Assembly: GCF_000478195.2 (NCBI RefSeq)
Contig: NZ_AUZM01000040.1
Span: forward strand, 1 to 59,219
DNA from: Lyngbya aestuarii BL J
GTDB taxonomy: Bacteria; Cyanobacteriota; Cyanobacteriia; Cyanobacteriales; Microcoleaceae
Length of the DNA stretch: 59,219 nt
Direction of reading: 5' to 3'
A program made the position numbers and the translations under genes. The notes under the pieces were generated by a model that saw only the letters and a list, made by a program, of their open reading frames with translations, made no database searches and was not told the origin of the DNA. Below are positions 7,297 through 56,315 of the stretch, one piece after another (within the stretch, counting starts at the first letter, position 1; every line of letters begins with the position of its first letter).

Positions 7297-7392
7297 TCTT
7301 GAGCCTGAACTGAGCCTTGTCAAGTTTACGAGATTTATTGCAGTTTGAAAAGGGTTGAGTGTCAATGATAACCTGTTTGAATTGATTTCCCT

Positions 7393-41220: not shown

Positions 41221-42123
41221 ATGTTTATTCCAGCACATAGTGATTTATTCGAGCCAACTCTTAACGCTTTAAAAGCTTTAGGAGGCTCGGGAAATAATCA
41301 GGAAATCTATGATAAAGTTTGTGAATTAGAAAACTTTTCCGAGGAACAGCAGAGTGTTCTTCATAAAGAAGGGCCACAAACAGAAATTAGTTATCGATTA
41401 GCCTGGGCTAAAAGTTATTTAAAAATCTATGGAGTAATAGAGAGTGTAAGGAGAGGTGTATGGTCTTTGAGTGAGAAAGGACGAAATCTAAAGTCAATTG
41501 ACCCAAAAAAAGTTCAGCGTTTTGTGCAATCAAACGCCAGACAAAAACGCCAGGATAATTCCTCTAATAACTTAGATAATAGTCTAGAAGAAAAAGCTCT
41601 GATTCAAGAGGAGGAGGAAAGTTTAGATTTAATAGATAAATCCTTACAAATGTCTGTAGAATCTGATATTTGGGTGGAGAAATTACTTCAGGTTTTACAG
41701 AAACTTTCTCCTGATGCTTTTGAACGATTATGTCAGCGTCTCTTAAGAGAGTCTGGATTTGTGAAAGTTGAAGTTACAGGAAAAAAGGGGGATGGAGGAA
41801 TTGATGGAATTGGAGTTTTGAAAATTGGTTTGTTGAGTTTTCAAGTTTTTTTTCAGTGTAAACGTTATTCTGGCTCTGTCGGTTCTTCAGAGATTCGAGA
41901 TTTTCGAGGTGCAATGGTAGGGAGAACTGATAAAGGTTTATTTTTAACAACTGGAACTTTTACTCGTTCAGCTCAACAGGAAGCAACCCGAGATGGCGCT
42001 CCTGCGATTGATTTAATTGACGGAGAACAACTCTGTCAACTTCTTAAAGATTTGAAGTTAGGTATTGAAACTAAGACAATAGAAGTGATTGAAATTAATC
42101 AAACCTGGTTTGCTAAACTTTAA
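41221..42123 (+). CDS. Mrr-type restriction endonuclease
   Basis: 300 residues. The N-terminal winged helix of Mrr_N is visible (YRLAWAKSYLKIYGVI, then GVWSLSEKGRNL). An acidic linker follows. The C-terminal nuclease domain has the Mrr_cat motifs: FERLCQRLL and GFVKVEVTGKKGDGGIDGIG, then the QxK segment FFQCKRYSG, in which Asp, Gln and Lys form the PD-(D/E)XK-like site. Such type IV enzymes cut modified DNA. No methylase is nearby, as expected for a modification-dependent enzyme. ATG at 41221, 30 bases after the amidase. A role in defence is likely but inferred. Confidence 0.88.
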   Translation: MFIPAHSDLFEPTLNALKALGGSGNNQEIYDKVCELENFSEEQQSVLHKEGPQTEISYRLAWAKSYLKIYGVIESVRRGVWSLSEKGRNLKSIDPKKVQRFVQSNARQKRQDNSSNNLDNSLEEKALIQEEEESLDLIDKSLQMSVESDIWVEKLLQVLQKLSPDAFERLCQRLLRESGFVKVEVTGKKGDGGIDGIGVLKIGLLSFQVFFQCKRYSGSVGSSEIRDFRGAMVGRTDKGLFLTTGTFTRSAQQEATRDGAPAIDLIDGEQLCQLLKDLKLGIETKTIEVIEINQTWFAKL

Positions 42124-43273: not shown

Positions 43274-44302
43274 TTATCGAGGAGGTTCATCACCTATTGT
43301 GGGTAATGGACGCATTCGACTTAACTTATCTGCCGCCCATCTAGCCGTTTCTCTCACTTCGCTATCAGGGTCATCCGCCGCCCGTTGTAATAACTGATTC
43401 ATCTGACAAGCTAAGTCATAAATACGGGTTAAATCTCGAATGGCATTTTTTCTAACTTCTGCATTTTCATCTTGTAATGATAGCGTTAACGCCCGACTCA
43501 TGGGTTTTAATGTGCGAGTTCCAATTTCTGAAAGGGCGGCTAAAATCAAACTTCGCTGTTTAGAATCAGAATTATAAATTAAATCTACTAAGGGTTGAAT
43601 CGCCCGAGAATCGCCTTGTTGACCCAATTCCCAAATCGTTTGACTGCGTTTAGTTGGATTCGTATTTTGTAATTCTAAAATCAATTGTTCCACTCGGTCA
43701 AGTTGAGGTAAACGGGGCTTATCGGCGATTAAAAAAGTCTCACCCGAATGAACTTGGGAGGGAATAGATGCTTTTTCTGGAGGTTCTTTTTGAGGGCGAG
43801 GTATATCTACATAGCCGTTATTTTCCCGAGGTTCGTTCACAGATTTATGAGTGGGTGGGGATAAAGTTTCGGGGTCTGTATTGGCATCTTCAAGTTGAAA
43901 CGGAGAAGCAGAACTCGGAGGAGTTAACGTATTTTCAGACTGAACAAGATAGGGTGAAGAATGTTCAACCGTCTCCTCGGGCGAGAGTTGGTCTTCGGCT
44001 TCCGGTTCAGGCTGATGACCAATTAATTTAACAATAATAAAAATAGCTCCTCCGGTCACAATTATTGACCCCACACCGAGTAAAATTAATCCGGTCGGAA
44101 GTTTAGTCGGAAGCTGAAATTTTTGCTTTTCAGAAGTTGAATTTTCTTGAGCCAATATTAACGAACGGGTCGATTCATCGGAGAGAACAGGAGGCTGTAG
44201 GTTAGTCAAATTTTGAGATATCGTACTTTGACTCGGATGGTCGATAAAACCCGAGAAAGTCAAGTAGGTCAGTAGGAGTAGAGGAATGTGGTAAGAAGCC
44301 AT
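43274..44302 (-). CDS. Membrane-anchored HEAT-repeat protein
   Basis: 342 residues. A short N-terminal hydrophobic segment may be a signal. A second, clear transmembrane helix lies at about residues 71-93 (LILLGVGSIIVTGGAIFIIV). A Pro/Ser-rich, low-complexity linker follows, and then 3-4 HEAT-type repeats from about residue 205 (WELGQQGDSRAIQPLVDLIY and similar) to the end. HEAT repeats in cyanobacteria often serve in protein binding, and some belong to phycobilin lyase-type proteins; here, with the membrane anchor, a scaffold is more likely. ATG at 44302. Upstream of the glycosyltransferase. Confidence 0.82.
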   Translation of the reverse strand: MASYHIPLLLLTYLTFSGFIDHPSQSTISQNLTNLQPPVLSDESTRSLILAQENSTSEKQKFQLPTKLPTGLILLGVGSIIVTGGAIFIIVKLIGHQPEPEAEDQLSPEETVEHSSPYLVQSENTLTPPSSASPFQLEDANTDPETLSPPTHKSVNEPRENNGYVDIPRPQKEPPEKASIPSQVHSGETFLIADKPRLPQLDRVEQLILELQNTNPTKRSQTIWELGQQGDSRAIQPLVDLIYNSDSKQRSLILAALSEIGTRTLKPMSRALTLSLQDENAEVRKNAIRDLTRIYDLACQMNQLLQRAADDPDSEVRETARWAADKLSRMRPLPTIGDEPPR

Positions 44303-44416: not shown

Positions 44417-47080
44417 ATGACAGGAGAGCGCACCCACAAACCGACTCAAAAGTTCATCACCACTGAAGCCTTCAGACCAAGAGGTGAACTCGGTGAACAG
44501 CAAGTTTGGGAAACGATTCGCCAGACTTTTGCTCACCGTCATTGTATCGCATATTGGCGTTATCCGATTTTTTCAAAAACAGGAGCTTTTCGTAAAGAAC
44601 CGGATATTTTAATTGTAGATGCTCAACTGGGATTAATTGTCATAGAAGTAAAGTCTATCACTCTTGATAAAATTGTTACTATTACAGGTCATGTTTGGGC
44701 GTTACAAAATTTTTACACAACTCGCATCACGCCCTACCAACAAGCAGAAAACCAACTCTTTGCTTTGCTGAACTATTGGAATTCTGAACCGATTCTCAAA
44801 CATCAAGTTTTTGGACGGGCGATAGTTGCTTTGCCTTTTATTCTCGCTCAAGATTGGGAAAAACGAGGCTTTGACAAATTACCAAGTTCTCCTCCTATTC
44901 TCTTTCAAAATGACCTTTTAAGTCCATCTTCTCTGATTGAATTAATCACTCAAATCCCTTCTTTAGTTCCGGGAAAAACACTCACGTCACCCCAATGGGA
45001 GCTATTACAAGCCATTATCTCTGGAACCCCTTTATTTCGTCCCCCAACCCGAAAATTCTTTTTCCGAGAACATCAAAAAATGCGGGCGGAAATCTTAGCT
45101 AAAGTTAGAGAACATATTTATAAACTGGATTTAAACCAAGAACGGATTGCGAAACAAATTCCCCCAGGTTTACAACGAATTCGCGGAATAGCAGGGTCTG
45201 GAAAAACTGTATTACTCTGTCAAAAAGCTGCCCAGATGCACCTTAAATATCCGGACTGGGATATTGCCTTAGTCTTTTTTAATCGCAGTTTATATCAACC
45301 AATTATTCAACATTTAGATCAGTGGTTGCGACACTTTAGTTGTCATCAAGTCGGGTATGATGTTCACAATCAAAAATTGCGGGTGCTTCATGCTTGGGGT
45401 TCAAAACAACAACCCGGACTTTATAATACAATTTGTCAAGCCGCAGGTGTTTGGAGTTTGAGTGTTCGTCAAACTAATTCTTCTAAACCCCATGAAGCAT
45501 TAGCAGAAGCTTGTTGTGATTTACTTCAAAAAACAGTTATTCCCGCCTGTTTTGATGCGATTTTAATTGATGAAGGTCAAGATTTAATCGTTAAAGATGA
45601 GTTGAAGTTTGAAGGAAAACAGCCGTTTTATTGGATGGCGTATCAAACTTTACGTCTGGTTAGTTTAGAAGCAAATCAAACCGCTAAAATCTCCCAACGT
45701 CTGTTAATTTGGGCGGCGGATGAGATGCAAAGTTTAGAACTGCAAAAAAGTCCGACAGCTAGTGAATTATTTGGGGATGAATGGGGACATCTGTTAACAG
45801 GTCAATATCCGAAGGAAATCAACAAAACAGAGATTTTTTCTCGTTCTTATCGGGTTCCTCGTCAAATTTTAAATGCGGCTTATGGGATTAGCTTGGGGTT
45901 ACTCCGTCCCTCGGGATTATTAACAGCGATGACCAGAATTGAAGATTGGGAAGTGATGGGTTATCAAGTGAATATTGAACATTCGGTTTATTCTCCTATT
46001 CCGAAAGTGACCTGATCTTTTGCGTCAGAAAACTGTCCTCATCCGGTTTCACAGTTTTGGGAAAATTCTCTGATTGAATTTGAAGCTTATCATTCTCGTC
46101 AAAATGAATTAACTGCCCTTTCTCAACATCTTTACCACAATTTAAAGATAGATGGGCTGCGTCCGAGTCGGGAAATTTTAATTATTATTTTAGGAAATAT
46201 TTTTGAAGCGATGGCGTTGGAAACTTATGTCGCTAATTTTTTGATGACACAGGGATTAGATATTTATATTCCGGGGGCGGTTGATTGTAATATTGTCACC
46301 TCTGAGAAAGAGAAACCTAATCAATTTTGGTGTGAAGGCGGAATTACTATTTCTCGTATTCATCGGGCGAAAGGACAAGAAGCGGATATGGTTTATTTAG
46401 TTGGGTTTGATCAAATAGCCAAAGATGAAGCAAATCTCAGTTTTCGTCATCAATTATTTGTGGCTTTAACGCGGTCAAGAGGTTGGGTGAGATTAACGGG
46501 AACGGGTGCTTATCCGATGTATAATGAAATGGCAGTGATTCAATCTGGCGATAGGTTTAGCTTTACCCAACGACAACCCCGAGTCCGAGAAATTGGCTTA
46601 ACAAATGTAGGGGAAATGTTGCGGTGTTATCATCAGGGAAACCGGAATTTTCGGGGTGTTAATTTAGTCGGAGTTGATTTAACGGGTGTTTGTTTGTCTG
46701 AGGCGAATTTGATGGGTGCGAATTTAGCTCAAGCTAACTTGAAAAATGCTAATCTTGAGGGTGCAAAGTTGTTATTGGCTAACCTTTCTCAAGCGGTAAT
46801 GACAGGCGCAAATTTACACCAAGCCAAGTTAGTTGGTGCTAATCTTTCTCACGCCAAACTGAGTGATGCAAATCTGACTCAAGCTGATTTACGAGATAGT
46901 GATTTGAGTAATGCTCAATTAATGGGTGCAACCTTGGAAGGGGCTAATTTAACTGGAGCAAATTTGAGTTATACAAATCTGAGTCAAGCGAATCTCAAAC
47001 AAGCTGATTTAACTGAAGCGACCTTGCAGGACACAATATATTCCCATTCTACTATAACTGATGGTACAATTTTTCCCTAA
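44417..47080 (+). pseudogene. NERD-UvrD helicase-pentapeptide repeat protein, broken by an in-frame TGA
   Basis: One long frame of 888 codons, cut once at the TGA 46013-46015. Before the stop: NERD nuclease-related domain (about 1-190; EPDILIVDAQLGLIVIEVK), then the helicase core with Walker A GIAGSGKT, motif II LIDEGQD, and LLIWAADEMQSLE. After the stop the same frame continues for 354 codons without interruption: the missing helicase motifs V (ISRIHRAKGQEAD) and VI (FVALTRSRGW), then a pentapeptide-repeat tail of A(N/D)LxxA units ending at 47080. Reading through restores one complete protein. An in-frame TGA with nothing else damaged suggests a recent nonsense change (one base from TGG) or a sequencing error. 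The truncated first part lacks motifs V and VI and should be inactive as helicase. Confidence 0.88.
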
Positions 47081-56243: not shown

Positions 56244-56315
56244 GCTGGCGTAGCACAATGGTAGTGCATCCGACTTGTAATCGGAAGGTTGTGGGTTCAA
56301 ATCCGACCGCCAGCT
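56244..56315 (+). tRNA. tRNA-Thr (TGT)
   Basis: Acceptor stem GCTGGCG / CGCCAGC with discriminator T; D-arm GCAC-AATGGTA-GTGC; anticodon stem TCCGA/TCGGA with loop CTTGTAA, anticodon TGT; T-loop TTCAAAT. One T-stem pair (G-G) is mismatched, otherwise a normal 72-nt molecule without encoded CCA. A strong terminator follows at 56378. Likely attachment site of the element to its right. Confidence 0.97.

Follow-up and report, generated by a model that had tools for sequence, protein, structure and literature searches.

An in-frame TGA splits a NERD-helicase-pentapeptide gene of Lyngbya aestuarii BL J: a probable recent loss in a widespread gene family

Background

A gene of Lyngbya aestuarii BL J for a protein with a NERD domain, a helicase and a pentapeptide-repeat tail is cut by a single TGA in an otherwise continuous frame, which raises the question of whether the gene has been lost, is retained in a shorter form, is read through, is really two genes or is only misread in the assembly. 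The gene lies in the stretch of 59,219 nucleotides analyzed here (the window).

Results and Discussion

The interrupted gene

Translation of the forward strand gave a frame of 888 codons, comprising 886 residues, one internal stop and the terminal stop, with the following features:

44417..47080, + strand: NERD / SF1 (UvrD-type) helicase / pentapeptide gene of Lyngbya aestuarii BL J, split by a single in-frame TGA
44480..44788, + strand: NERD domain, residues 22-124 (Pfam PF08378, E 9.6e-8, 33 bits, cut-off 22.1)
45185..45871, + strand: helicase motifs I to IV, ahead of the stop (codons 257-485; conservation counts)
46013..46015, + strand: TGA, codon 533, sole internal stop of the 888-codon frame (translation)
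46337..46495, + strand: helicase motifs V and VI, past the stop in the same frame (codons 641-693; Pfam and conservation counts)
46613..47077, + strand: pentapeptide-repeat tail, start approximate (PF00805, E 6.5e-40)

After the TGA, 354 codons are open in frame, and the other two frames hold 34 and 33 stops in the same stretch; given the base composition, so long an open run has a chance of about 1e-11. The NERD match exceeds the curated Pfam cut-off, placing the gene among the NERD-helicases. The acidic and ExK residues E61, D63, E77 and K79, which we take to be the catalytic residues of the NERD domain, are all present, and they are found in 44, 44, 42 and 40 of 44 homologues, respectively. 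The conserved helicase motifs correspond to codons 257-267 (I), 381-390 (II), 429-440 (III) and 473-485 (IV) ahead of the stop and to codons 641-661 (V) and 679-693 (VI) past it, where UvrD_C_2 also exceeds its cut-off (E 9.7e-12) and the pentapeptide models match from residue 200 of the second piece. In the window copy the SF1 helicase core, motifs I to VI, is not contained in a single open frame, since V and VI lie past the stop. The original prediction, made from the sequence alone, of a single TGA at 46013 with motifs V and VI and the tail following in the same frame agrees with the translation, the Pfam matches and the conservation counts. Homology to an intact member (locus L003) extends over the whole length, with 61% identity over L003 residues 9-921.

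The first ATG, GTG or TTG past the TGA is 66 codons on, and the ATG at 46211 opens a frame of 289 codons, as would suit two separate genes. However, 65 codons separate the stop from the first start, and the homologues form one gene in 68 of 74 loci. Since there is no start codon for 65 codons past the stop, the downstream piece is no separate gene, and the two-gene reading, contradicted by the homologues, was rejected as scarcely credible.

Intact and broken homologues

The N part of the protein finds some match in 32 of 59 relative genomes, its own included, several of them weak, and the whole protein gives a match at E <=1e-60 in 41 of 388 genomes of the class, again with its own genome included. 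Ninety loci were collected, of which 12 duplicates were dropped and four set aside (L028, L029 and L058 as incomplete, L031 as too distant), leaving 74 to be judged; 15 of the 45 rows of the class-wide search, including partial matches in genomes G367 and G371, came without a fetched locus and stand outside these tallies. Open-frame figures of the genome search read through stops and were not used for calling copies intact. The helicase was open in 68 of the 74 loci, so that the orthologues are not pairs of genes, and broken in six (the window, L082, L032, L055, L030 and L027). The tail is reached by 43 of the 68 open copies, a count that leaves out L041, whose tail match holds stops. These counts indicate that the NERD-helicase-pentapeptide architecture is common in cyanobacteria, contrary to the original description of the domain set as uncommon.

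Among the broken copies, the NERD-helicase at L082:1510-3675 (- strand; genome G337, 2 contigs) is interrupted by one TGA; the column concerned, window codon 303, holds Trp in 45, Tyr in 6 and Cys in 1 of the other rows, the window among them. L032, from a Planktothrix MAG, has a frameshift near window codon 552. In Microseira wollei (L041, after position 7319) a pentapeptide tail continues in frame beyond the stop of the gene with six stops inside it, as if only the tail were decaying. In Limnofasciculus baicalensis (L059:4986-7874) an in-frame insertion of about 250 bases lies between NERD and helicase in a gene that is otherwise open, and the matches in several other relatives are likewise split between these two domains.

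The column of the stop and its surroundings

The column of the stop (533), for which a comparison with intact orthologues had been proposed, holds Leu in 33, Ile in 11 and Val in 2 of 46 rows, among which is the N piece of the broken L032; in an alignment enlarged by seven rows but lacking the L032 pieces, the counts were Leu 34, Ile 13 and Val 5 of 52. The column falls in a short predicted strand (residue 554) of a model of the intact Planktothrix rubescens copy. Two codons past the TGA, at a column that is Arg in 43 of 46 rows, the window carries Phe, and it also differs at columns 540, 542 and 547, each at least 90% conserved, suggesting that the change at the stop site may involve more than one substitution. 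The claim that the rest of the gene is undamaged thus stands for stops and frame but not for these positions, which depart from conserved residues. Breaks between motifs IV and V make up three of ten known breaks (window codon 533, L032 at about 552 and a Chondrocystis plasmid copy at about 532), a clustering spotted post hoc.

Such locally odd residues would be expected from a small misassembly or from several bases changing together. The TGA could be a consensus error of the draft assembly, which has 437 contigs, with the gene intact in the cell; the clustering of altered conserved residues beside the stop speaks for such an error.

Constraint on either side of the stop

A fixed tree of 24 copies served to estimate branch lengths from the ancestor shared with seven copies of the Planktothrix clade, separately for the parts on either side of the stop. 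The window branch measured 0.416 pre-stop and 0.456 post-stop, a ratio of 1.10, and the post/pre ratios of the seven relatives ran from 0.90 (L004; 0.401 pre-stop and 0.361 post-stop) to 1.13 (L003; 0.373 and 0.420). No faster evolution past the stop was measurable on this tree. Since the two rates are much alike, constraint on the post-stop part was until recently about as strong as on the part ahead of the stop; the same result would also be obtained if the stop were an assembly error.

Columns conserved in 90% of the other copies were also compared, omitting four distant rows and the L032 pieces. The window departs from them at 14 of 241, against 6 of 236 for L003 and 6 of 237 for L004, and at 7 of the 62 such columns past the stop (>=90%), against 1 of 62 in each of these nearest relatives. 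On the other hand, departures number 8 to 24 in eight intact copies whose overall divergence is similar (mismatch 0.33-0.39), and at five of the conserved columns where the window departs, L051, itself intact, does so too. The departures of the window are therefore within the range of similarly divergent intact copies and give no verdict on decay either way.

Interrupted genes, TGA usage and tRNAs in the same genome

A scan for stops flanked by coding sequence in the same frame covered 2.44 Mb, or 35% of the 6.86 Mb genome, and gave 22 candidates with the window included (15 TAA, 4 TGA and 3 TAG); under stricter criteria, 0.84 Mb yielded 5. Some of the 22 resemble two adjacent genes when inspected by eye. 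When Pfam was applied to 10 of them, a domain spanned the stop in four and in none of the other six. Three of the four carry TAA, namely a PQQ-like propeller, an SDR and a CHASE2 protein, and the fourth, a TAXI-type receptor, carries TGA. Judged by these domains, at least four further genes in the scanned 2.44 Mb are cut by one stop (three TAA, one TGA), and nonsense-cut genes belong to the background of this genome.

Two of these genes were compared with other genomes. The PQQ-like propeller (G000:C1:24549, L099) has an open frame in 14 of 16 other genomes, whereas G004 and G006 hold it as fragments, and its stop column holds Glu in 11 of 11 aligned copies. The TAXI-type receptor (G000:C2:110762, L115) is open in all four other genomes with a match, where the stop column holds Leu in three and Phe in one.

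The clear interrupted genes carry differing stops (TAA in three and TGA in two of five), as ordinary mutations would, which argues against an assembly error at codon 533. Isolated substitution errors are, moreover, uncommon in short-read consensus, although this genome may have been sequenced by another method. We regard an assembly error as possible but rather doubtful.

The same gene set bears on read-through of the TGA, by which the full-length protein would be made. The frame is conserved past the stop, and the two clear interruptions among the four TGA candidates fall at columns that are mostly Leu in relatives (33 of 46 rows for the window, 3 of 4 for the TAXI-type gene), so that Lyngbya aestuarii could be imagined to read some in-frame TGA as a hydrophobic residue, yielding a full-length NERD-helicase and a full-length TAXI-type receptor. 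However, TAA interruptions are at least as common (three of five clear cases) and TGA terminates 151 of 928 long frames sampled in the genome. None of the tRNAs read has the anticodon TCA, 11 of 52 tRNA matches being unread, in a search that scored 150 of 522 first-look candidates and in which three matches gave no gene with ARAGORN. Nor did RNA structure at the stop rise above shuffles in three local folds (z +1.1, -0.1 and -0.2). As far as tested, TGA behaves as an ordinary stop in this genome. Read-through of this gene is very improbable, and recoding that would restore both proteins is just as hard to credit; recoding across the genome was rejected, with no support from the tRNAs read, the TGA usage or the scan for interrupted genes. 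Of the original suggestion that the break is recent, an error or read through, the first two parts stand, a recent break with a remainder that is still conserved being likelier than an error; read-through found no positive evidence.

The tRNA search also returned an array of nine tRNA genes in 2.4 kb (G000:C16:15219-17636, L241), a group of six matches among those unread (G000:C9:116669-117476) and, in the window itself, a tRNA-Thr with anticodon TGT at 56244-56315.

Plasmid homologues and the truncated form

The N part matched 49 plasmid records, of which the best 20 align over 93-97% of its 532 residues at 27-50% identity; phage records gave no match. At 40% identity or more there are 14 plasmid records, four of them from Leptolyngbya boryana strains that were counted as one lineage, and the C part adjoins the N part in 13 of the 14. 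At least four of the 14 hold broken copies: an IS4 element interrupts that of Nostoc cf. commune SO-36, an IS5 element that of Deinococcus NW-56, the D. gobiensis copy has a frameshift and the Chondrocystis sp. NIES-4102 copy is truncated. The Nostoc HK-01 copy, the one inspected among the other ten, is open.

The NERD-helicase of the Chondrocystis sp. NIES-4102 plasmid (L266:7986-10390) stops, by eye, at the stop column of the window; its annotated frame has 536 codons with the stop, and the helicase C part was not found in this plasmid record. The gene that follows it looks, by eye, like an HNH endonuclease. This homologue and the retained NERD residues would fit a short form of 532 residues that is kept and functions as a NERD protein carrying the ATP-binding half of the helicase. 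However, it is a single other case, spotted post hoc, the whole helicase is kept in 68 of 74 loci, and the window has kept its post-stop part conserved, something for which a short form of long standing would have no need. A retained short form is thus improbable, though the truncated protein could, judging from its residues, keep NERD activity.

Probable origin of the stop

We consider it likely that a recent nonsense change at codon 533 broke a formerly intact gene and left a 532-residue product with a non-working helicase. In support of a recent break are the single stop in an otherwise open frame, the single-frame homologues, the unchanged post-stop rate, the other nonsense-cut genes of the genome and the homologues broken elsewhere. 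The change would have hit the region separating helicase motifs IV and V, which is weakly conserved. The product, if any is made, would consist of the NERD domain and the first RecA-like domain, together with a portion of the second. Since such a product has neither motif V nor motif VI, its helicase should not work. This account presumes that the TGA exists in the living genome and not merely in the assembly, and that function was lost; if the role of the family lies in defence or DNA processing, its loss would be tolerated. A search of the genus for a second genome of the species returned only this one.

The gene thus belongs, as an ordinary member, to a widespread family with broken copies in further lineages, and its state looks like the ordinary recent loss of an often-lost gene and not like a new kind of gene. 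The odd TGA is explained without recoding, and its value is mostly that of a clean negative.

Genomic neighbourhood

Two genes upstream of the interrupted gene were identified by Pfam:

41221..42123, + strand: Mrr-type restriction gene, 2.3 kb upstream
43274..44302, - strand: HEAT-repeat gene, divergent

Neighbours were surveyed at 30 named loci as frames of at least 150 codons, with flanks shortened at several loci. The HEAT-repeat gene is the neighbour most often conserved (10 of 30). The Mrr-type gene, to which the original prediction had given weight, adjoins the homologue in none of the 30 and appears incidental. A glycosyltransferase occurs as neighbour in 2 of 30, and an amidase, a phosphoribosyltransferase and a macroglobulin gene in none; the names amidase, glycosyltransferase and macroglobulin were assigned by eye. 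No reverse transcriptase was recognized at 39.4-53.5 kb, where Mrr, HEAT and phosphoribosyltransferase were named by Pfam and the others by eye, and no Gabija-type partner nuclease was recognized among the neighbours inspected.

Relation to known systems

Plasmids of Leptolyngbya, Deinococcus, Haloarcula and others encode proteins annotated as nuclease-related domain-containing DEAD/DEAH box helicases, in which NERD is likewise followed by an SF1 helicase; the window copy differs in its pentapeptide tail and its internal stop. All 19 aligned homologues match the PADLOC "Helicase" model PDLC03002 and C3a187 (NERD+UvrD), and the two pieces of the window gene match PDLC03002 on either side of the stop; the likeness is to model names, with no defence system assigned. 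The NERD and ATP-binding region of the window also match the DRT-associated NERD-helicase (PADLOC RTasNERD-Hel, E 8.6e-9), as do 11 of the 19 homologues. The C part of the helicase weakly matches the UvrD-type helicase GajB of Gabija (E 3.1e-7), whose models are matched by 18 of 19 homologues, and for Nhi the window gave E 0.038 and 2 of 19 homologues E <=0.001.

For the intact Planktothrix rubescens copy, structure prediction gave a model of middling quality (pLDDT 74, pTM 0.44). Among the best 50 of its 1192 Foldseek matches, pentapeptide solenoids rank at the top; Schlafen, RecBCD-chain and Dna2 helicases follow lower down and at low TM. Schlafen proteins (SLFN11, SLFN14) are among the listed long matches, with E from about 1e-8; with TM 0.15-0.19 and rmsd near 20, this likeness may serve as a lead only.

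In published work, the domains given for Mokosh type I and Nhi-like defence proteins include NERD (PMC10952713), which is also present in Dnd neighbourhoods (PMC10853773) and in a rare YprA-linked system (PMC12458937). No paper title naming the NERD-helicase-pentapeptide architecture was found in the literature searched. From its domains the gene is a probable DNA-processing enzyme, and a defence role for the family is plausible. In intact members the helicase would move on nucleic acid driven by ATP, the PD-(D/E)xK-like NERD domain would cut nucleic acid, and the pentapeptide solenoid would act as a binding or regulatory tail. If the family is a defence system, its breakage across lineages by point changes, frameshifts, IS elements and truncation would fit the rapid turnover expected for genes of this kind.

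The Lyngbya aestuarii genome holds a second NERD gene (G000:C26:14399-14719, L001). The family search that listed the NERD of L001 missed that of the window, though hmmscan puts the latter over the cut-off.
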